Positions 1-63,397 of a DNA stretch of 64,000 bases are shown here, in pieces. A program made the position numbers and the translations under genes. Where the stretch lies: assembly GCF_003352185.1 (NCBI RefSeq), contig NZ_CP029608.1:5746501-5810500 (forward strand). The letters run 5' to 3'. The notes beneath the pieces are model-generated. The model made no database searches. It worked only from the letters and a program-made list of their open reading frames with translations, and was not told the origin of the DNA. The DNA is from Pseudomonas kribbensis. Lineage in GTDB: Bacteria > Pseudomonadota > Gammaproteobacteria > Pseudomonadales > Pseudomonadaceae. Numbering within the stretch: position 1 is the first letter of the stretch; every line of letters begins with the position of its first letter.

Positions 1-1750
1 GCGACTCGCTGCCAGCCTTCACCGACGCGTTCAGCGAGTGAATCCGTGGCAGCAGACGAGCAAAGTAGAACCGCGCCGTGCCGAGCTTGCTCGCGTAGAA
101 ATCATCCTGCGCTTCTTTGCCAAGCGATGCCTTGGCCATCAACGCCCACATGTAGGCGTAAGCGGTGTAGCCGAAGGCTTGCAGATACTCGACCGACGCC
201 GCACCGATTTCGTTCGGGTTGGTTTTCGCCCGGTCCAGTAGCCACGAGGTCAGTTCGTCTAGGTTGTCGACGGCGTCATTCAGCGGTTTGGTGAACTCAC
301 CGAGGTCGGCACTCGCCGTCGCGGTGAAATGGCGGATCTCGTCGGCGAACAGTTTGTAGAACGCGCCGCCGCTGCCGACGATCTTGCGGCCTACCAGGTC
401 CAGTGCCTGAATGCCGTTGGTGCCTTCGTAGATCTGGGTGATGCGCACGTCACGCACCAGTTGCTCCTGACCCCACTCGCGGATGTAGCCGTGGCCGCCA
501 AAGATCTGCTGGCCGTGGACGGTGGTTTCCAGACCCAGATCGGTCAGGAATGCCTTGGCCACTGGCGTCAGCAAGGCAACCAGATCTTCCGCACGCTTGC
601 GGGTCGCTGCGTCTTCACTGAACTTGGCGGTATCGAGTTGCATCGCCACGTAAGTGGAGAACGCACGGCCACCTTCGTTCGAGGCTTTCATGGTCAGCAA
701 CATGCGACGCACGTCCGGGTGGACGATGATCGGGTCGGCCACCTTGTCCTTGTTCTGCGCGCCGGTCGGCGAACGGCTTTGCAGGCGGTCGCGGGCGTAC
801 TCAAGAGCGTTCTGGTACGAGCGCTCGCCGGTGGCCAGGCCCTGGATACCGACGCCCAGACGCTCGTAGTTCATCATGGTGAACATCGCGGCCAGACCCT
901 TGTTCGGCTCGCCGACCAAGTAACCCACGGCTTCGTCGAAGTTCATCACGCAGGTGGCCGAAGCCTGGATGCCCATCTTGTGTTCGATCGAACCGCAGTT
1001 CGCCGGGTTGCGCGCGCCCAGGCTGCCATCGGCATTGACCATGAACTTCGGCACCAGAAACAGCGAAATGCCTTTCGGCCCCGCCGGTGCGTCCGGCAGT
1101 TTGGCCAGCACCAGGTGGATGATGTTTTCGGTCAGGTCGTGCTCACCGCCGGTGATAAAGATCTTGGTGCCGCTGACCTTGTAGGAACCGTCGGCCTGAG
1201 GCTCGGCCTTGGTGCGGATGATGCCCAGGTCGGTACCGGCATGCGGCTCGGTCAGGCACATGGAACCGGCCCAGACGCCGGCGTACATGTTCGGCAGGTA
1301 AGCGGCTTTCAGCTCTTCGCTGGCGTGGGCGTTGATCGACAGGCAGGCGCCGGCCGTCAGCATCGGGTACAGACCGAAGGACAGGCTGGCGGAGTTGACC
1401 ATCTCTTCGACCTGAGCCGAGACGGCTTTGGGCATGCCCATGCCGCCGTATTCCGGATCACCGCCAACACCGACCCAGCCGCCTTCGGCATAAGTCTGAT
1501 AGGCCTGTGGGAAACCGGCCGGGGTGGTGACGGCACCGTCGGCCCAGTGGCAACCCTCTTCGTCGGCCGCGCGGCTCAGGGGCGCGATGCTTTTGCTGGT
1601 GACCTTGCCGGCCTCTTCGAGAATGGCTTCAACGGTTTCCGCGTCGACGGTCTCGGCCAGGGCCGGCAGTTCGGCCCAGAGTTTGGCGACTTCGAACACT
1701 TCATTGAGGACGAAGCGCATATCGCGCAGCGGCGCTTTGTAGTCAGCCAT
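1..1750 (-). CDS. Acyl-CoA dehydrogenase, long FadE-like type (3' end beyond window)
   Basis: FAD enzyme that oxidises acyl-CoA to trans-2-enoyl-CoA in the first step of beta-oxidation. The reading frame starts at an ATG at 1750 ([13 protein letters not shown]) and stays open through base 1, giving 583 residues. Its two paralogues in this window are 598 and 601 residues, so only about 18 residues are missing. The catalytic-base motif YEGT is present with Glu at residue 442, and the MCLTEPHAGTD substrate/FAD segment is intact. It lies 184 bases downstream of the next paralogue, in the same orientation. By position it matches PA0508 of P. aeruginosa, which has been called FadE2; that match is from memory of gene order. 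Chain-length preference cannot be read from the sequence. Confidence 0.93.
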   Translation of the reverse strand, partial: MADYKAPLRDMRFVLNEVFEVAKLWAELPALAETVDAETVEAILEEAGKVTSKSIAPLSRAADEEGCHWADGAVTTPAGFPQAYQTYAEGGWVGVGGDPEYGGMGMPKAVSAQVEEMVNSASLSFGLYPMLTAGACLSINAHASEELKAAYLPNMYAGVWAGSMCLTEPHAGTDLGIIRTKAEPQADGSYKVSGTKIFITGGEHDLTENIIHLVLAKLPDAPAGPKGISLFLVPKFMVNADGSLGARNPANCGSIEHKMGIQASATCVMNFDEAVGYLVGEPNKGLAAMFTMMNYERLGVGIQGLATGERSYQNALEYARDRLQSRSPTGAQNKDKVADPIIVHPDVRRMLLTMKASNEGGRAFSTYVAMQLDTAKFSEDAATRKRAEDLVALLTPVAKAFLTDLGLETTVHGQQIFGGHGYIREWGQEQLVRDVRITQIYEGTNGIQALDLVGRKIVGSGGAFYKLFADEIRHFTATASADLGEFTKPLNDAVDNLDELTSWLLDRAKTNPNEIGAASVEYLQAFGYTAYAYMWALMAKASLGKEAQDDFYASKLGTARFYFARLLPRIHSLNASVKAGSES

Positions 1751-7892: not shown

Positions 7893-8573
7893 TCAGTCGA
7901 GCAGATCCAACTGCAAGTGTTCCGCGACCGTCTCGGCACTGAGCGCCTTGAGTTTCGGCACTCGCCCCAGGCACGGCGCCGGAATCCGCTCGGCCAGGGT
8001 CGCGAGGTTTTCCTCCAGCCGCGAAGTCTTCGGATCAATGATATTCGCCACCCAACCGGCCAGTTGCAGTCCGTCTCGGGCAATCGCCTCGGCCGTCAGC
8101 AAAGCATGGCTGATACACCCAAGGCGCACGCCCACCACCAGAATCACTGGCAGCTGCAACGCAATGGCCAGGTCCGAAAGATTGTCCTGATCCGCCAACG
8201 GCACCCGCCAGCCACCCGCGCCTTCGATCAACGTGAAATCGGCGTTCATGGCCAGAATCTCGCGCATCGGCCCCAGCAGCGATTGCACGGTCAGCGCCAC
8301 ACCGGCCTCTCGTGCCGCCAGATGCGGCGCGATCGCCGGCTCGAACGCTACCGGATTGACCTGTTGATAAGTCAGCGGCAAAGAGCACTCGGCCTGCAAC
8401 GCCAGCGCATCGGAATTGCGCAGGCCTTTGGGCGTCACGACACAACCGGACGCCACCGGTTTACCCGCCGCCGTACTCAACCCAGCCGATCTGGCGGCAT
8501 GCAGCAATCCGGCGGCGACAGTCGTCTTGCCGACGTCAGTGTCGGTTCCGGTGATGAAATAGGCTGCGCTCAT
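7893..8573 (-). CDS. bioD: Dethiobiotin synthetase
   Basis: Converts 7,8-diaminopelargonate, CO2 and ATP to dethiobiotin, the penultimate step of biotin synthesis. It has 226 residues. The P-loop [10 protein letters not shown] begins near residue 9, the substrate-binding KPVASG follows, and GAGGWRVPL is the second conserved segment. The start codon overlaps the bioC stop by four bases (ATGA), showing translational coupling. It is the last gene of the bioB-F-H-C-D run on the minus strand. Confidence 0.97.
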
Positions 8574-17279: not shown

Positions 17280-18167
17280 ATGCAAGCCGCCAACCCGCGT
17301 CGCGGGTACATTCTGGGCCTGAGTGCCTACATCATCTGGGGACTGTTCCCGCTCTACTTCAAAGCCATCGCCGAAGTCCCGGCGGTGGAAATCATCATCC
17401 ACCGGGTGCTGTGGTCGGCGCTGTTCGGCGGGCTGTTGTTGCTGGTCTGGAAGCATCCGGGCTGGTGGCAGGAGCTGCGCGACAACCCGAAACGCCTGGC
17501 GATTCTGGCGCTGAGCGGCACCTTGATCGCGGCCAACTGGCTGACCTACGTCTGGTCGGTAAATAACGGCCGGATGCTGGAAGCGAGCCTCGGTTACTAC
17601 ATCAACCCGCTGGTGAACGTGTTGCTGGGCATGCTGATCCTCGGCGAACGACTGCGCCGCATGCAGTGGCTGGCGGTCGGACTGGCGGCGGTCGGCGTTG
17701 CGCAGCAGGTGTGGCAGGTTGGCAGTCTGCCGTGGGTATCGCTGGTGCTGGCACTGACCTTCGGTTTCTACGGGCTGATCCGCAAGCAGGCGCCGGTCAA
17801 GGCACTGCCGGGGCTGGTGGTGGAAACCTGGATGCTGGTGCCGATCGCCCTCGCGTGGCTGCTGTTCAATCCGACCGCCACCAGCGCACAGGCCGCGTTC
17901 TGGACTACTTCAGAAGCCTGGTGGCTAGTGGCGGCCGGTCCGGTGACGCTGGTGCCGCTGGTGTGCTTCAACGCCGCCGCCCGGCACCTGCCTTACACCA
18001 CCCTCGGTTTCCTGCAATACCTGGCGCCGACCCTGGTGCTGCTGCAAGCCGTGCTGCTGTTCGGCGAGCATTTGTCGTCCAGCACGCTGATCGCCTTCAT
18101 GTTTATCTGGGCTGGTCTGGCGGTGTACAGCGTCGATGCGTGGATAAGTCTGCGTCGGCGCAGCTGA
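17280..18167 (+). CDS. rarD: RarD-type EamA transporter
   Basis: A 295-residue inner-membrane protein of the drug/metabolite transporter superfamily with about ten hydrophobic helices in two EamA repeats. The RarD signature GLSAYIIWGLFPLYFK is at the N-terminus, and ANWLTYVWSVNNGRMLEASL is the typical loop after the third helix. The family name derives from chloramphenicol sensitivity; the physiological substrate is unknown. The 3' end runs into the repeat-rich region 18189-18352. Confidence 0.93.
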   Translation: MQAANPRRGYILGLSAYIIWGLFPLYFKAIAEVPAVEIIIHRVLWSALFGGLLLLVWKHPGWWQELRDNPKRLAILALSGTLIAANWLTYVWSVNNGRMLEASLGYYINPLVNVLLGMLILGERLRRMQWLAVGLAAVGVAQQVWQVGSLPWVSLVLALTFGFYGLIRKQAPVKALPGLVVETWMLVPIALAWLLFNPTATSAQAAFWTTSEAWWLVAAGPVTLVPLVCFNAAARHLPYTTLGFLQYLAPTLVLLQAVLLFGEHLSSSTLIAFMFIWAGLAVYSVDAWISLRRRS

Positions 18168-18188
18168 TCAAAAAACGCACAAACCTCC

Positions 18189-18213
18189 ACAGGCCACGGT
18201 TCTCGTGGCCTGT
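18189..18213. repeat. 10-bp perfect hairpin downstream of rarD
   Basis: ACAGGCCACG (18189-18198), loop GTTCT, CGTGGCCTGT (18204-18213). It is preceded by TGATCAAAAAA and followed 17 bases later by a TTATCCACA 9-mer (18231-18239). It may terminate rarD, though the run after the stem is only weakly T-rich. It shares its GCCACG/CGTGGC core with the composite repeat that follows. Confidence 0.6.
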
Positions 18214-18283
18214 ATCGTTCCTTCCCAAGGTTATCCACAGCGTGATCCCCGCCGTTTGTGCGCAAGTCACTGAATGCTGGCGG

Positions 18284-18352
18284 TTTTTTGATCGATCCAC
18301 GCGAAGCCACGGCGGACGTGGCCTGGAAGGCAGTCTCTACAGGTTATCCACA
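18284..18352. repeat. Composite repeat: TTTTTTGATC, hairpin, TTATCCACA (single copy)
   Basis: TTTTTTGATC (18284-18293) and the DnaA-box 9-mer TTATCCACA (18344-18352) start exactly 60 bases apart. Between them GCCACG (18306-18311) and CGTGGC (18317-18322) form a small hairpin. The same layout with the same 60-base offset occurs in three units of the array at 62162-62562. It lies in the 223-base gap between convergent rarD and the gcvR-like gene. Confidence 0.7.
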
Positions 18353-18390
18353 GGCAGGTGCACGTTTAAACTGGATAACCCGATACGTCC

Positions 18391-18909
18391 TCACAAGTCG
18401 GTGCGCAGCACCAATTCCACCATCAAGTCATCGGCCAGGGTTTCCAGGCGCGATTGCAGCACATCCAGTGAAAGAGTCAGGGGCACCGCCAGAATCGCCT
18501 CGGCGTGGAACAGCGGCTCGCTGCTCATCGGCGCCGGGCGCACCTCGGTCACCAGCCGTTCGAGGTTCACGCCCTGCTCGCTCAGCAACCGGGTGATGTC
18601 GCGCACGATGCCCGGACGATCATTACCCACCAGTTCCATGGCAATCGGTTTCCAGGTGCAGGCCTGCTCGATGCCGCTTTCGGCCACCAGCACGCGAATG
18701 CCCTGCGCCGACAGCGCTTGTAAGGCATCGACTAATTCGTCGTAAGCCTCCGCCGGCACACCGACTCGCAGAATCCCGGCGAACTGCCCGGCCATTCGCG
18801 ACATGCGGCTTTCCAGCCAGTTGCCGCCGTGTTCGGCGATGCATTGGGCGATGCGCTCGACCTGCCCGGGCTTGTCCGGCGCGAAGACGGTGAGTACGAG
18901 GTGATCCAT
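18391..18909 (-). CDS. GcvR-like protein with two ACT domains
   Basis: A 172-residue protein of two tandem ACT domains (about residues 1-80 and 90-170) and nothing else, as in GcvR, which in E. coli binds GcvA to repress the glycine cleavage genes when glycine is low. The conserved ACT turns are APDKPGQVERIA and NDRPGIVRDITRLL. It is divergent from malate synthase G with a 476-base gap. A role in sensing glycine or glyoxylate-related metabolites would fit that neighbour, but this is inference. Confidence 0.87.
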   Translation of the reverse strand: MDHLVLTVFAPDKPGQVERIAQCIAEHGGNWLESRMSRMAGQFAGILRVGVPAEAYDELVDALQALSAQGIRVLVAESGIEQACTWKPIAMELVGNDRPGIVRDITRLLSEQGVNLERLVTEVRPAPMSSEPLFHAEAILAVPLTLSLDVLQSRLETLADDLMVELVLRTDL

Positions 18910-58188: not shown

Positions 58189-61100
58189 TCAACCGAGGGC
58201 CGTTTTCTCCAGGTGTTCAAGGATGATCGGATACACATCGACCACTGCGTTCTTGCCGAACATGCAATCGATGTGGCCATAGCCCGGCACCACATGCCGG
58301 CTATAGCGCTCCGGCCCATGCTTCTCGCAAACCCGCTGATAGGTCTTGAGCGTGCTCTCCGGCAAATAGCACTGGTTCTCCGCGCCGCTGATGAAGCAGA
58401 TCGGCATGGTCAGCCGGTCGAAGTGCGGCATGTACACATCGTTGCCCTTGAAGTCCACCAGATGCCCTTTGCGCACGATCAGCGCCAGATGCTCGAACGT
58501 CTCGATGTTCGACTCGCCGAACAGTTCGTGCAGGTTGTCGTGCAGCGTCTCGTTGAGGGTGTCGTGGCGGTACAGCGAGGCGTACATGAAGGTGATGCGG
58601 TGGCACACCGGGTTGGTGCAATAACCCTGGGCTTCGATCCGCGCGTAGCCGTTGAGGGCCTTGTCGTAGAGGCGGTTGAACCAGTTTTCCTTGCTGTCGG
58701 CGTAGGCGGTCATGGATTTGATGCCAATGGCGTCGAGCATCCCCGGCAGGTGCAGACCGGCCTTCAGCCCCGTCGCCGTCGCGACCACCGTATCAGCGGC
58801 AATTTGCGAGCAGACTACCGAGCGCACGCCCTGCAAACCGGCGAGCAACGACATGAAGAACGTCGTCGCGCCGTAGCAATGCACCACACACTGCACGTCC
58901 TTCGCGCCGGTCTGCTGCTGGATCTGCCCGATGGCAGCCTTGAAGTCGTACTGGGCGATCTGGTCGCCGTTCCATTCCTTCTTGCTCGCCGGCAGCAGGA
59001 TGCTCACCCGGAAATCCAGCAGCCACACGTCGTAATCATGCTTGCAGAGAAACTCCAGCAGGTTGGTCTGGATGGTGTCGGTGGAAAAGATGTTCGAGCC
59101 CACACCCAACCCGTGCACCAGCATCACCGGGCCTTTGCTGCCGGCCTGATAGCGGCTCAGGCGCAGTTCCACGCCGTCCTCGGTGGGGAAGAAATGCACA
59201 TCCGGCGTCGGCGCATCCAGCGGCCGTTTCAAGCGTGGCGGCGCGTCGGGGTTGAAGTATTTGTCGCCGGCAAACACCCCGCCGTAACTCTCCCAGAGGA
59301 TCCCGGCGAAGAACTTGCCGAACCGCGCCAGCCCTTCAATGCGCTCACGCTCGTTGCGCGCGTTGAGGACCTTCATGGTGGTCATCTGCTTGGCGAAATC
59401 CGCCGGTTTGATGTGCATCACACCCGAGCCGATGACTTCGCCGGACTTGTCCGGCCCGCGATACAGCGTGACGTAGAGGGTGCTGGTGTCATGCCAGATG
59501 TTCAGCACGCCGTTGTCTTCCGGCACGGTTTTGAAGGCGCTGAAGAAATAGTCGTTGCCGTCCTCGGCGGTCAGTTTCATGTCGTATTTCATGTGGCGTG
59601 TGTCGACCTGCTGCTCGAATTGCTCGAACAGGTTGAACACGCCGTTGCTGGCGGTCAGCGGCTGCGGCGACAGGGCCGGGGCGATCACCGTGCCGACGAT
59701 GGTTGCGGCGTGCTCCGGCTCCTTGATCATCCGGTTGAGGTCGTTGGCGGTGATGGTCAGGGTGAAATCGATCGGCGAGTTGTCTGCCTCGCCACGTTTG
59801 GCCGCCGCTTCGTAGACCTTGAGATCGGTGCTCTGCGCAGCGGTGAAGGCCCGGGAGAAGTAGCCTTTCATGGTCTCGGTGAACTGTACACCGAGGGTCG
59901 GTGGCACCGGTTGTTTGCGCGGTGCCGAGGGCAATGTGTAATCGATTTTCCAGCCACGGTCGGCGGCCAGCAGGCCCATGTTGCGCTCGCTGACGGCGGA
60001 GATGGTCAGCAGCGGGTTGACCGCCAGTGAGGTCGGAATCACCGCGCCGTCGGTCACGTACAGGTTGGCGTAGACATCGGTGCCACTGGCGCCGCTAAAC
60101 ACCTGGCCCTTGTGGTTGACCACGCCTTGCGCGGCGTCTTCGCCCATCACGCAACCGCCCAGCGGATGCACCGAGACGATGCTGTGCTTAAGCAATTTGG
60201 TCCAGATCGGATTCTCGACCCAGATCCCGCCCAGTGCCTTGGTGCTCTGGTGCAGGCGTTCGTTGCCGATCTTGAAGTTTTCCTGCTCGCCGACGCCCGG
60301 CCAGTCGATGCGCAGTTGATCCTTGCTGTCGAGGACCATCCGCCCCTGGCCGCTGTCGTGGCTCATGATCAGGTAAGTCTGCATGTTGTGCAGCGCGCCG
60401 TAGTAAGGGCCGCGCAGGAAGCTTTCGGCTTCGCGCTCCTTGTACTTCACCTTGCCGCTGAAACTGTCGTCGGTGGGCACCCCGATCATCTCGGCGAACC
60501 CGGCCATCGCCGGCACCATCGGCCGCCCGAGGGCGCCGGGGATCGAGCCTTCCTCGATGACCATACGGCTGCTGCGATCACCCTCGTTGCGCATGTCGAT
60601 GATCGAGGTGATGCACGGGCCGACCGGTTTCATCTCCTTGGCCGAGTGCGTACCGAAACCGATGCCGTTGATGGTCTGCTCGCAGTTGTGGCCGAAGCCG
60701 AGGATGTCACCGTTGCCGCTCATGTTCTCGCCGAGCTGGCCGGACATCGCCAGGCCCTTGTCCCGCGAGCGCAGCAGAATCTCGGTGGAACCAAGAGTGC
60801 CGGCGGATACCACGACAATGTCGGCCTTCACGAACAGCGTTGGCGCGTCGAACTTCTCGCGACCACTGTCGAGGTACTGGAAGTGCACGATCCAGCCATC
60901 ACTGTCGCGTTCCAGATGCCGCACCTGGGCCTGGCAGAAAATCTCCGCGCCGTGATTGGTGGCGTCCGGCAGATAGTTCATCAGCGTGGTGTTTTTGGCC
61001 TTGTTGTTACAGCCTGAAACGCAGTCACCGCAGTGGTTGCACGGCAGTTGCTCGACGCCGACGTGGTTGAGGTTGTTCGGCAGTTTGTCGAAGGTCACGT

Positions 61101-61641
61101 TGATCGGCGGCTTGTAGAAGTTCGCGCCTTGCTTGAGGAAGTCCGCGGACTGTTTGTTGGCATCGAGCTTGGGCAGGTTCGGTGCGCTGTCCGGATAAGG
61201 GTTGGGTTTGAGCATCTCCCGGGCTTTTTCGTAACCGGCCTTGAGCAAACCATCCTGGTCCTCGCGCACCGCCAACGGCCAGCGTGGATCCTTGAACACA
61301 TCGGCTGTCGGCTCCAGCGAAACGTTGGCATTGATCAACGACGTGCCACCGAGGCCACAGCCGACCACTACGTTCTGCTGCGCGTTGACGTGCAGATCGA
61401 ACAACCCGGTGCGCGAGCCGATGTGGCCGTCCGGATCGTGCACCTGCAGCTCTTCGGTCGCAGCGATCATGGTGTTGGGGTATTCGCCGGGCTGGATTTC
61501 CCGACCGCGCTCCAGCAGGCACACCTTCTTGCCGGCCCGAGACAGGCGCGAAGCGGCAATGCCGCCGCCGTACCCGGAGCCGATGACGATCACGTCGTAG
61601 TGTTCCTTGATGTCGCTGATGGGCGTTGCGATCCGTGTCAT
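58189..61641 (-). CDS. GMC oxidoreductase fused to an alpha/beta hydrolase (1150 residues)
   Basis: Three parts are visible. (1) Residues 1-550 are a cholesterol-oxidase (ChoD)-like GMC flavoenzyme: FAD motif VIGSGYGGGIAASRL (from 19), cysteine motif CNHCGDCVSGC (Cys201, 204, 207, 211), and active-site block HPLGGC with His492. (2) Residues 560-780 are a linker domain without known name. (3) Residues 800-1150 are an alpha/beta hydrolase: oxyanion region VHGLGVGSN, a nucleophile elbow reading VHCYGA with Cys922 in the usual serine place, and His1123 in GYGHID. There is no signal peptide. AGGA precedes the ATG at 61641. It is first of three same-strand genes. The likely substrate is a sterol-like or hydrophobic alcohol or ester; unproven. 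Confidence 0.87.
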   Translation of the reverse strand: MTRIATPISDIKEHYDVIVIGSGYGGGIAASRLSRAGKKVCLLERGREIQPGEYPNTMIAATEELQVHDPDGHIGSRTGLFDLHVNAQQNVVVGCGLGGTSLINANVSLEPTADVFKDPRWPLAVREDQDGLLKAGYEKAREMLKPNPYPDSAPNLPKLDANKQSADFLKQGANFYKPPINVTFDKLPNNLNHVGVEQLPCNHCGDCVSGCNNKAKNTTLMNYLPDATNHGAEIFCQAQVRHLERDSDGWIVHFQYLDSGREKFDAPTLFVKADIVVVSAGTLGSTEILLRSRDKGLAMSGQLGENMSGNGDILGFGHNCEQTINGIGFGTHSAKEMKPVGPCITSIIDMRNEGDRSSRMVIEEGSIPGALGRPMVPAMAGFAEMIGVPTDDSFSGKVKYKEREAESFLRGPYYGALHNMQTYLIMSHDSGQGRMVLDSKDQLRIDWPGVGEQENFKIGNERLHQSTKALGGIWVENPIWTKLLKHSIVSVHPLGGCVMGEDAAQGVVNHKGQVFSGASGTDVYANLYVTDGAVIPTSLAVNPLLTISAVSERNMGLLAADRGWKIDYTLPSAPRKQPVPPTLGVQFTETMKGYFSRAFTAAQSTDLKVYEAAAKRGEADNSPIDFTLTITANDLNRMIKEPEHAATIVGTVIAPALSPQPLTASNGVFNLFEQFEQQVDTRHMKYDMKLTAEDGNDYFFSAFKTVPEDNGVLNIWHDTSTLYVTLYRGPDKSGEVIGSGVMHIKPADFAKQMTTMKVLNARNERERIEGLARFGKFFAGILWESYGGVFAGDKYFNPDAPPRLKRPLDAPTPDVHFFPTEDGVELRLSRYQAGSKGPVMLVHGLGVGSNIFSTDTIQTNLLEFLCKHDYDVWLLDFRVSILLPASKKEWNGDQIAQYDFKAAIGQIQQQTGAKDVQCVVHCYGATTFFMSLLAGLQGVRSVVCSQIAADTVVATATGLKAGLHLPGMLDAIGIKSMTAYADSKENWFNRLYDKALNGYARIEAQGYCTNPVCHRITFMYASLYRHDTLNETLHDNLHELFGESNIETFEHLALIVRKGHLVDFKGNDVYMPHFDRLTMPICFISGAENQCYLPESTLKTYQRVCEKHGPERYSRHVVPGYGHIDCMFGKNAVVDVYPIILEHLEKTALG

Positions 61642-61978
61642 GAGGTGATTCCTCTCTCAGGCAGATGGGGCAACTCTGCGGTTGCCTGCAATCAATGGGC
61701 GAACGGGCACCTGGCCCCCGGGCAGGCCCGGCGGCAGTACAACGGCGTGGCAGGATTCAGGCGCTATAGACGGGCATGCTGATTGGCGGCACGGCGCAAG
61801 GTGCGCGTGCGCGGCTTCGGGGCTGACAGCAAGCGGGGTTTGAGGGGTGAGCGATGTGGCTGGGTATCCATCACGCGTTCTCCCTGAACCAGATGTGGAT
61901 AAGTGACGGCGGTCCTTGTGCCATTGGAGTGAAGACAGCGGCCGGTTTGAAGTCAAGGCAGCGCTTTAGAACTGTATG
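61642..61978. other. Intergenic region upstream of the GMC fusion gene
   Basis: No credible gene is seen. A 99-codon minus-strand frame (61657-61956) has low-complexity Pro/Ser/His content and no ribosome site. One inverted DnaA-box 9-mer TGTGGATAA lies at 61894-61902. The promoter of the GMC gene must lie here but no clear -35/-10 pair was found. Confidence 0.6.
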
Positions 61979-62562
61979 AAATCTGATCAATTACCGTTTG
62001 GACTATAGCCGGCGGGGCTCGCAGGGTTTGGCGAACAAGTTATCCACATAGCCACCCACAGCAAATGGGGACAACTGTGGATGGCTTCTGAAAATATCGA
62101 CGAATTCGTGAAGAAAAACCGTGACTTATCCAGAAGCAGGGTTTTCAGCAACGATTGAGTGTTTTTTGATCACAAGCCTGCAAGTCGCGGATTGCGTGGC
62201 TCGCAAGGGATGGCGAACACCTTATCCACAGAAGCGCCAACAGACTTCGGGGGTAACTTGGCGGGCGCTGTGGAAAAGCGCTGAAGGCCTTGATAAATCG
62301 CGGTTTGCGCGAGGTCTGGCGAGTCAAAAGGCTGAATTGATCGTTTTTCGATCAACTCTTCGCAAGCCACGGTTTATATGGCTTACAGCGGATAGCGAAC
62401 ATCTTATCCACAGAAGCGCCAACAGAGATTGGGGGCAACTTGGGGAGTTATCCTGGGAAAAAAGCTCGAAAAAACCGCGAGTTAGGCTGGTTGTTTTTTG
62501 ATCTTCGGGCTGGAGGGCTTGGTTGGCGTGGGGTTCAGGGATGGGCGAACACGTTATCCACA
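61979..62562. repeat. Tandem array of a composite repeat carrying DnaA-box 9-mers
   Basis: Four units. Each ends in GCGAACA(N2)TTATCCACA; the 9-mers lie at 62040, 62222, 62404 and 62554, so spacings are 182, 182 and 150. Three units carry TTTTT(T/C)GATC exactly 60 bases upstream of the 9-mer (62162, 62344, 62494); the first has a degenerate CTGATC at 61 bases. After the 9-mer units two and three share GAAGCGCCAACAGA and then GGGGG-AACTTGG. A hairpin-like GCCACGG..TGGCT core lies between the blocks in the better-preserved units. There is no protein-coding frame. A fifth copy is at 18284-18352. Confidence 0.8.
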
Positions 62563-62586
62563 GATCAGCCAACAGGGATTGTGGGT

Positions 62587-62613
62587 AAAAACCCTCTTCC
62601 GAAGGAAGAGGGT
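62587..62613 (-). terminator. Terminator of the etf operon
   Basis: ACCCTCTTCC (62591-62600) pairs with GGAAGAGGGT (62604-62613) around GAA. On the minus strand it is followed by TTTTT (plus-strand A-run 62587-62591). It begins 14 bases after the etfB stop and touches the end of the last repeat unit. Confidence 0.9.
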
Positions 62614-62626
62614 CAAATGCAGGGCT

Positions 62627-63397
62627 CTAGCGGACAACACCTTCTTCGATCAGCAGTTTGAGGATAGCTTCGGCACCTGCCTCGGCAGTCACGCCCTTGA
62701 GCACCTGCCCCCCACCCCCACTGGCCTTGGCCGTCGCCGCCTTCATCCGGTCCGCCCCGCTCTTGGCCTTGATCACCTTCAACCGTTTCGGCCGTGGCTT
62801 GGCCGGTTGCAGGGTCGACACCGCGAGCAATTCGTCGTCCACCACTTCCACGTCTTTTGCCTGGAGAACCCCACGCCGCGCCGGGCCGTAAGCACTCTGC
62901 CGAGGCTTGGGCGCGGCGTTATCCACAGTCGCGAGAAACGGCAGACGTACCTTCAACCGGCGCCGCTGCCCACGGGGCAACGCCTGCAACACCAGTGCCG
63001 AGCCGTCGCTGATCGACTCGACCTGCGCCAGCCCCACCACCAGCGGCCAGCCCAGCCCTTCGGCCAGCAGGAACGGCAGCATCCCCGAACCTTCACCGGT
63101 TTCCGCCTGGCTGCCAGTCAACACGACCTGAGCCCCGGCATCCCGCAAATAGTCGGTCAACGCCGGCAACGCATCCGCACCGGCCGGTTGTTCCAGCACA
63201 TGCATCTGCTCCAGCCCCATGCCCAGATAGGCGCGCAGCGCAGGTTCGCCAATGTCCCCGGCATGCAGCACTTGCAGGTTATCCCCAGCCAGTTGCAAGC
63301 CGAGTTCCACCGCCCGTGCATCCTGTTCGGCACGACGCGGGCGGCCCGAGGTCGGGTGGGCGCCGATTGAAACCAGACTGATGATCTTTGTGCTCAT
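62627..63397 (-). CDS. etfB: Electron transfer flavoprotein beta subunit (dimethylglycine-type)
   Basis: A 256-residue EtfB. Typical blocks are the AEQDARAVELGLQLAG segment near residue 23, VVLTGSQAETGEGSGMLPFLLAEGLGWPL (the ETF beta core) and LPRGQRRRLKVRLPFLATV. It is divergent from housekeeping EtfB and fits the subtype linked to dimethylglycine demethylase DgcAB. Start at 63397; etfA ends nine bases upstream at 63407. Accepts electrons from DgcAB, expected just beyond the right edge. Confidence 0.9.
   Translation of the reverse strand: MSTKIISLVSIGAHPTSGRPRRAEQDARAVELGLQLAGDNLQVLHAGDIGEPALRAYLGMGLEQMHVLEQPAGADALPALTDYLRDAGAQVVLTGSQAETGEGSGMLPFLLAEGLGWPLVVGLAQVESISDGSALVLQALPRGQRRRLKVRLPFLATVDNAAPKPRQSAYGPARRGVLQAKDVEVVDDELLAVSTLQPAKPRPKRLKVIKAKSGADRMKAATAKASGGGGQVLKGVTAEAGAEAILKLLIEEGVVR

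Follow-up and report, generated by a model that had tools for sequence, protein, structure and literature searches.

DARS elements (DnaA-reactivating sequences), which promote the release of ADP from ADP-DnaA and raise ATP-DnaA in vivo, are usually drawn as two single loci, and the setting of DnaA activity outside Escherichia coli is, to our knowledge, largely open. In E. coli, the cores of DARS1 and DARS2 are described as three DnaA boxes with equal spacing in both elements, box I running opposite to boxes II and III, and DARS1 has in addition a regulatory flank of ~50 bp (PMC5742627). E. coli DARS2 is reported to use Fis (PMC4245941), and its boxes I and II are reported to be crucial (PMC4585315). 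According to a review that cites a 2009 paper, DARS1- and DARS2-like sequences are conserved in many proteobacteria (PMC10380432); a Pseudomonas homologue as such would therefore not be new, and an earlier mention of a DARS-like sequence from this genus is possible. Literature searches on DARS and on DnaA boxes or titration, covering titles and the first parts of abstracts, showed no paper on DARS in Pseudomonas among those listed.

Here, we describe a family of repeats found in a stretch of 64,000 nucleotides of the Pseudomonas kribbensis chromosome (the window; positions 5,746,501-5,810,500), together with its distribution in the genome and the genus. Each unit is ~105 bp long and consists of a Fis-like 15-mer, a palindromic stretch, the DnaA box TTATCCACA and two weaker DnaA-box positions. 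The units resemble E. coli DARS1 in their three box positions, which have identical spacers (3 and 5 bp) and orientation, in a similar flank of ~50 bp (TGCAAGCC.CG ... GCTTGC) and in being intergenic. Nevertheless, there are clear differences between the two. DARS1 is one locus in E. coli, whereas this Pseudomonas has ~11 units; in E. coli DARS1 it is boxes II and I that are strong, in the Pseudomonas copies box III; and DARS1 is placed at 17.5 min, not origin-proximal (PMC5742627), whereas the units here are origin-proximal. From the sequence, we consider it highly probable that the units belong to the DARS1 family by ancestry. In the literature examined, no description was seen of the multi-copy origin-flanking array, of the Fis-like site attached to its units, of the exchange of the strong box or of the variants that are shorter by about a helical turn.

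Anatomy of the repeat unit

The window contains six units, two in locus A and four in locus B. They were scored with R2, a wider profile built from all 121 rows, rows shorter than 95 nt included, all of which are Pseudomonas copies. The units and their surroundings are as follows.

17280-18167, + strand: EamA transporter gene, flanking locus A
18164-18272, + strand: unit A0 (R2 E=2.0e-11 in its own genome); Fis-like 15-mer 18166-18180, palindromic block 18187-18215, box III 18231-18239, box II position 18243-18251, box I position (inverted) 18257-18265
18277-18387, + strand: unit A1 (R2 E=7.3e-11); Fis-like 15-mer 18279-18293, including TTTTTTGATC at 18284, palindromic block 18300-18328, box III 18344-18352, box II position 18356-18364, box I position (inverted) 18370-18378
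18391-18909, - strand: ACT-domain protein gene, flanking locus A
58189-61641, - strand: GMC oxidoreductase gene, flanking locus B
61894-61902, - strand: extra exact DnaA box outside the units, just 5' of cluster B
61972-62081, + strand: unit B0 (R2 E=1.5e-17); Fis-like 15-mer 61974-61988, box III 62040-62048, box II position 62052-62060, box I position 62066-62074
62155-62264, + strand: unit B1 (R2 E=4.2e-21); Fis-like 15-mer 62157-62171, palindromic block 62178-62206, box III 62222-62230, box II position 62234-62242, box I position 62248-62256
62337-62447, + strand: unit B2 (R2 E=9.9e-25); Fis-like 15-mer 62339-62353 (GATCGTTTTTCGATC), palindromic block 62360-62388, box III 62404-62412, box II position 62416-62424, box I position 62430-62438
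62487-62590, + strand: unit B3 (R2 E=1.5e-21); Fis-like 15-mer 62489-62503, palindromic block 62510-62538, box III 62554-62562, box II position 62566-62574, box I 62580-62588 (TTACCCACA on the - strand, one mismatch)
62627-63397, - strand: ETF-domain gene, flanking locus B; 98% identical to that of P. pharyngis, in line with the genus Pseudomonas

Unit A0 is a sixth copy that the initial annotation had overlooked, and its first four bases overlap the 3' end of the EamA open reading frame. B0, which had been taken for a worn copy at 61979/62040, is a genuine unit by its R2 score; its 15-mer-to-box distance is one base longer than in the other units, and among the nine own copies first aligned it was the one that needed a single base inserted. 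B0 is bracketed by a 14-nt inverted repeat (93%; TGGATAAGTGACGG / CCGTGACTTATCCA) at 61896-61909 and 62119-62132, which carries DnaA-box-like cores.

The family had first been noticed through a fixed offset between two short blocks, and this observation was reproduced: TTTTT(T/C)GATC is exact at 62162, 62344, 62494 and 18284, TTATCCACA is exact at 62222, 62404, 62554 and 18344, and the offset from the T-tract block to TTATCCACA is 60 in all four exact window copies. The objection that the blocks might lack a preferred spacing genome-wide did not hold: a search of the entire genome (a single contig of 6,324,282 bp) for TTTTTYGATC-N(40..60)-TTATCCACA gave four occurrences, with N=50 in 4/4 and all inside the window, and the reversed control gave none. 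With up to one mismatch, the window contains 16 matches to TTTTTYGATC against 4.9 expected and 23 to TTATCCACA against 5.5 expected. Across the genus, the offset is 60 in 38/38 distinct aligned copies that hold the T-tract, and in 89/90 T5YGATC/TTATCCACA pairs no more than 200 bp apart in 80 named Pseudomonas loci, where a reversed-string control gave no pair. The 50 intervening bases had been described as mostly diverged, which is not simply so: a conserved palindromic block is present, and most copies also have a GCGAACA or CTCAGG-type end immediately 5' of the box. In A0 and in the copy near 5.477 Mb, GATC sits on the opposite side of the A/T tract; because of this, the upstream site appears near-palindromic, which suggests that the two GATC orientations are halves of one site.

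For the anatomy, five rows shorter than 95 nt and six duplicates were removed from the 121 rows, giving 110 distinct full-length copies; the 15-mer counts leave out one gapped row (n=109). Module 1, the 15-mer, has G first and C last, and its central five bases are 96% A/T. The letter rule G..Y(7)R..C (pyrimidine at 4, purine at 12) fits 108/109 copies, A1 being the sole copy that violates the pyrimidine at 4, and the same rule fits 2.1% of the 15-mers in the window. As to the inner bases, A5 or T11 is correct in 104/109 copies and both are in 18/109. A Fis 15-mer consensus, GnnY(A)n5(T)RnnC with an AT-rich centre, is described in PMC10380432 and PMC4278767, the latter giving the full form GnTYAWWWWWTRAnC; module 1 agrees with the former, in its outer letters nearly always, and is a predicted Fis site. 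Eight copies from outside the family follow the letter rule in 7/8 and the full GnTYAWWWWWTRAnC in 4/8.

Module 2 is the palindromic block, which has a 5-base centre, and module 3 is box III, TTATCCACA, perfect in 107/109 copies. Counted from the G that opens module 1, box III is 65 bases away in 83/110 copies and 66 in 22/110; of the remaining five, one has 61 and one 87, and in three the distance was not found. Modules 4 and 5 are the 9-base positions II and I, which follow after spacers of 3 and 5 bases, the last being inverted, so that the three boxes occupy model positions 68-76, 80-88 and 94-102. As DnaA boxes, II and I are poor in the amplified copies (two to six mismatches in box II, mostly one to three in box I). 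Their positions are tightly conserved, with ACAG at 96-99% and G97, A101 and A102 at 100%.

Relation to DARS1, DARS2 and datA

Modules 3-5 coincide exactly with DARS boxes III, II and I in the arrangement III-3-II-5-(inverted)I. When R2 was run on three E. coli MG1655 loci (22 kb), DARS1 scored 17.7 bits (E=2.6e-5), and the matches at DARS2 and datA were short and confined to the surroundings of boxes. The best R2 match also falls at bioD-uvrB, the DARS1 locus, in three enterobacterial genomes (G445, G451 and G576), whose UvrB is 93-95% identical to that of E. coli. This is three of six Enterobacteriaceae genomes (f53, the family being assigned via UvrB identity in three of the six) that were taken from the match listing, four of them chosen for having a match; a fourth (G564) has a partial match that is not at uvrB, and two have none. 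In G641, from another family of the class, the sole match at E<=0.03 is full length (E=2.2e-7) and adjoins uvrB, and its 15-mer is without the purine at 12. The bioD-uvrB position serves here as an aid to homology, not as a functional definition.

The flank was compared separately from the boxes. For the 48-bp flank with DnaA boxes excluded and in one anchored register, E. coli DARS1 was beaten by 2/20,000 shuffles and three DARS1 relatives by 1, 2 and 3/20,000, the four tests not being independent since these loci share ancestry. Flank scores of ~7, nearly as high, occur at two unanchored places in the E. coli locus L096. The DARS2 flank is not similar to the Pseudomonas flank (3,708/20,000 shuffles), nor is that of datA (18,997/20,000). 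At a distance of exactly 38 bases before box III, 6/9 own units first aligned read GCC (the others GTC, GGC and ACT), as do 4/4 enterobacterial DARS1 loci. The Fis-like 15-mer is absent at -65 or -66 in E. coli DARS1 and its three relatives. Beside the five loci of this genome and its terminus-side copy there is no uvrB. Window positions 7950-8573, ~9.6 kb from locus A, hold a homologue of bioD whose product is 51% identical to E. coli BioD, possibly a residue of synteny with E. coli, where DARS1 is directly beside bioD.

E. coli DARS2 has the same core geometry, as read by eye. However, it is 455 bp long, its Fis sites (FBS2-3) have another layout than in the Pseudomonas units and it needs IHF sites (IBS1-2), all at set distances, for which no exact counterpart was found in loci A and B; in these two loci, the IHF consensus appears with one mismatch at 62295 on the - strand. 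E. coli datA resembles the units as an origin-proximal cluster of DnaA boxes, but its box layout is different, an IHF site between DnaA boxes is required and the match is a short one around the 9-mer.

Beyond the class, 52 genomes of other classes in the phylum match R2 at E<=0.01, 42 of them at 1e-4 to 1e-2 and ten more strongly; these matches may be distant relatives or chance. The strongest (G365, 4.1e-7; G586, 6.6e-7) are at about the level of G641, so that an isolated R2 match is no proof of relationship, and weak single-copy matches in the phylum were not used as evidence, since other classes match at that level.

Copy number and chromosomal position

A sequence-only profile from nine own copies, R1, finds eleven strong copies in the genome at E<=6.5e-14, the next match having E=0.009. 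They lie in five loci, at 5.477 Mb (one copy), 5.765 Mb (two, locus A), 5.809 Mb (four, locus B), 0.678 Mb (two) and 0.828 Mb (two), of which both 0.678-Mb copies were found though outside the training set. All eleven are spread over the two arms at 8-13% of the genome length from dnaA. The pair of full copies at the 0.678-Mb locus has a weak partial unit in between (L046, 1669-1713), perhaps a product of decay within the array. That the units might be duplicates of oriC was considered and rejected: in the oriC region, R1 reported no match at E<=10 among 150 of 1,079 first-look candidates scored.

Matches at E<=1e-3 are present in 119/119 genomes of the genus sample, with 4-18 copies per genome (median 11; 8-13 in 105/119). 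In the order, R2 matches 122/194 genomes at E<=1e-3, with 5-15 copies per matching genome inside the family and one to five, mostly one, outside. The chromosomal position was followed in 13 complete genomes, a hand-chosen set of 11 out of 35 listed single-contig genomes plus two more, with sizes rounded except for this genome. In this set, 129/133 copies and 63/67 loci fall in the origin half, at a median of 0.104 genome lengths from dnaA, and both arms are occupied in 12/13; the exception (G014) has four copies, three at +0.243 and one at +0.409. Neighbouring genes were compared in six genomes, which are related, so that shared loci do not count as independent events: locus A is common to 5/6, the 0.678-Mb locus, which adjoins an ABC-transporter ATPase gene, is common to all six by chained matches, and others are restricted to sub-lineages.

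Divergent copies occur as well. Five further genomes of the genus have copies (L145, L146, L147, L149 and L150) with only 53-54 bases between module 1 and the box instead of 65-66, a shortening by about one helical turn, and the three of these copies whose place is known are 0.35-0.43 of the genome from dnaA. A divergent twelfth copy in this genome (L144; 1946865-1946960) is on the terminus side at +0.31 genome length; it has a DARS-like core in which box II is perfect and boxes III and I have two mismatches each, and it lies 5' of an RmuC-family gene, with an hda homologue ~19 kb distant. The genome also encodes a Fis homologue (59% identity) and an Hda homologue (48%). Exact TTATCCACA occurs 142 times in the genome, compared with 13 for the reversed 9-mer; among the matches listed (the first 100 of the 142 in order, the other 42 of which should fall beyond 5.76 Mb), there is none between 2.07 and 4.67 Mb, which is 41% of the chromosome. 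Many of the TTATCCACA boxes inspected appear by eye to be intragenic.

Candidate function and competing explanations

The suggestions in the initial annotation of selection on a protein-DNA structure and of DnaA titration or reactivation are well supported at the sequence level by the DARS-core geometry, the similarity to the DARS1 flank, the presence in 119/119 genus genomes and the origin-proximal placement. We favour, with some reserve, the view that the repeats are DnaA-regulatory cis elements of the DARS1 type, each having a Fis-like site and nucleotide exchange as its main activity. Reactivation is taken as the default because the DARS geometry, the DARS1 flank and the conserved weak boxes have all been kept. 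Counting against this view are the mismatches in boxes II and I of the amplified copies, the two boxes reported to be crucial in E. coli DARS2, the lack of the 15-mer in E. coli DARS1 and its relatives, and the position of the own loci away from uvrB. Both the occupancy by DnaA and Fis and the nucleotide-exchange activity are what we infer from these features, and a protein of the Fis type probably acts at module 1. According to this model, a Fis or Fis-like dimer would bind the AT-centred 15-mer and bend the DNA, and DnaA would bind the strong box III and, in a cooperative manner, also the weaker box II and box I, which is inverted. Boxes I and II, arranged head to head, would together with the conserved flank alter the bound DnaA, most likely by ADP release leading to ATP recharging. 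Eleven units at ~0.08-0.13 genome lengths on either side of oriC could couple recharging or capture of DnaA to early replication dosage, and the link to Fis could tie it to fast growth.

A wider and more tentative reading is that the DnaA cycle of Pseudomonas is run by a distributed array of about eleven Fis-gated DARS1-type units in place of a single DARS1/DARS2/datA set. The array would keep similar fractional distances on both sides of oriC though some host loci change, and would be joined by terminus-side copies in which either box II is perfect or the modules stand one helical turn closer together. If true, the array would serve as a clock driven by replication dosage, and DnaA would be reset when the units are duplicated soon after initiation. 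A genus-wide origin-flanking array of DARS1 type with a built-in Fis-like site would offer removable parts by which titration could be compared with nucleotide exchange in another model organism. The shift of the strong box from II to III would amount to a natural mutant series.

The most serious rival is a DnaA sink, in which units descended from DARS1 would by now serve chiefly for high-affinity titration, or for hydrolysis as at datA, in the vicinity of oriC, every new copy taking up DnaA after origin firing. We regard this as rather unlikely, although it has to be taken seriously because box III is the sole strong box in the amplified copies. The distance of the own copies from dnaA, 0.08-0.13 genome lengths, is also near that of E. 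coli datA, which we take to be ~0.10 genome lengths from the origin, and the exact DnaA boxes, among the matches listed, avoid the 41% of the chromosome around the terminus. In E. coli, too, DnaA boxes are reported to gather near oriC and titration to take place there (PMC12371093). However, a pure sink has no need for a fixed Fis-like site, a palindrome or the weak boxes II and I, yet all of these are conserved; a datA-like action in particular would require an IHF site, of which loci A and B hold no exact consensus, and the datA flank is without similarity. The DARS and sink readings predict opposite signs for the effect of extra copies and for that of deletions.

Other readings fit fewer of these features. 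DnaA and Fis are both known transcription regulators and the units are intergenic, so that the two proteins might regulate the flanking genes from the unit; this is improbable, as the genes next to the units have no function in common (EamA transporter, ACT protein, GMC oxidoreductase, ETF, histone-deacetylase-like, UPF0029 and ABC transporters) and some of them change from lineage to lineage, whereas the unit is retained and keeps its distance from dnaA. A site for chromosome organisation or segregation, with the DnaA boxes as a by-product, would suit the two-armed, origin-proximal placement but leaves unpredicted both the DARS-core geometry and the uvrB match in three enterobacterial genomes, and we give it very little weight. 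Scarcely any weight goes to a structured non-coding RNA or a mobile palindromic repeat (REP/REPIN- or SBW25-type), which the palindromic middle and the tandem copies might bring to mind and which the initial annotation had listed. The RNA is not supported, given the lack of an Rfam match at gathering scores and of covariation in the palindrome: compensatory pairing in the supposed hairpin is not above shuffles (65.7% of cells paired versus 67.7% shuffled; score 0.206 versus 0.221). Against a mobile repeat family stand the steady copy number (8-13 in 105/119) and neighbour genes common across species, and a 451-bp piece of locus B has no match in 72,556 plasmid and 50,697 phage records. The repeat families catalogued in SBW25, to which the units had been tentatively linked, differ in copy number and G+C as described in PMC2718517. 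Among them, R178 comes nearest and is like the units in its length of ~100 bp (101 bp) and its internal inverted repeat (11 bp), and it is reported from all three P. fluorescens genomes examined there (PMC2718517). The units, unlike R178, have 50% G+C instead of 61.9% and a median of 11 copies instead of 18, 28 and 9; identity with R178 is thus unlikely, the two being set apart by the published description of R178 and not by its consensus. Anr/FNR half-sites (TTGAT motif), weighed with the Anr consensus, were dropped as a reading because their symmetric spacing is that of the 15-mer Fis site.
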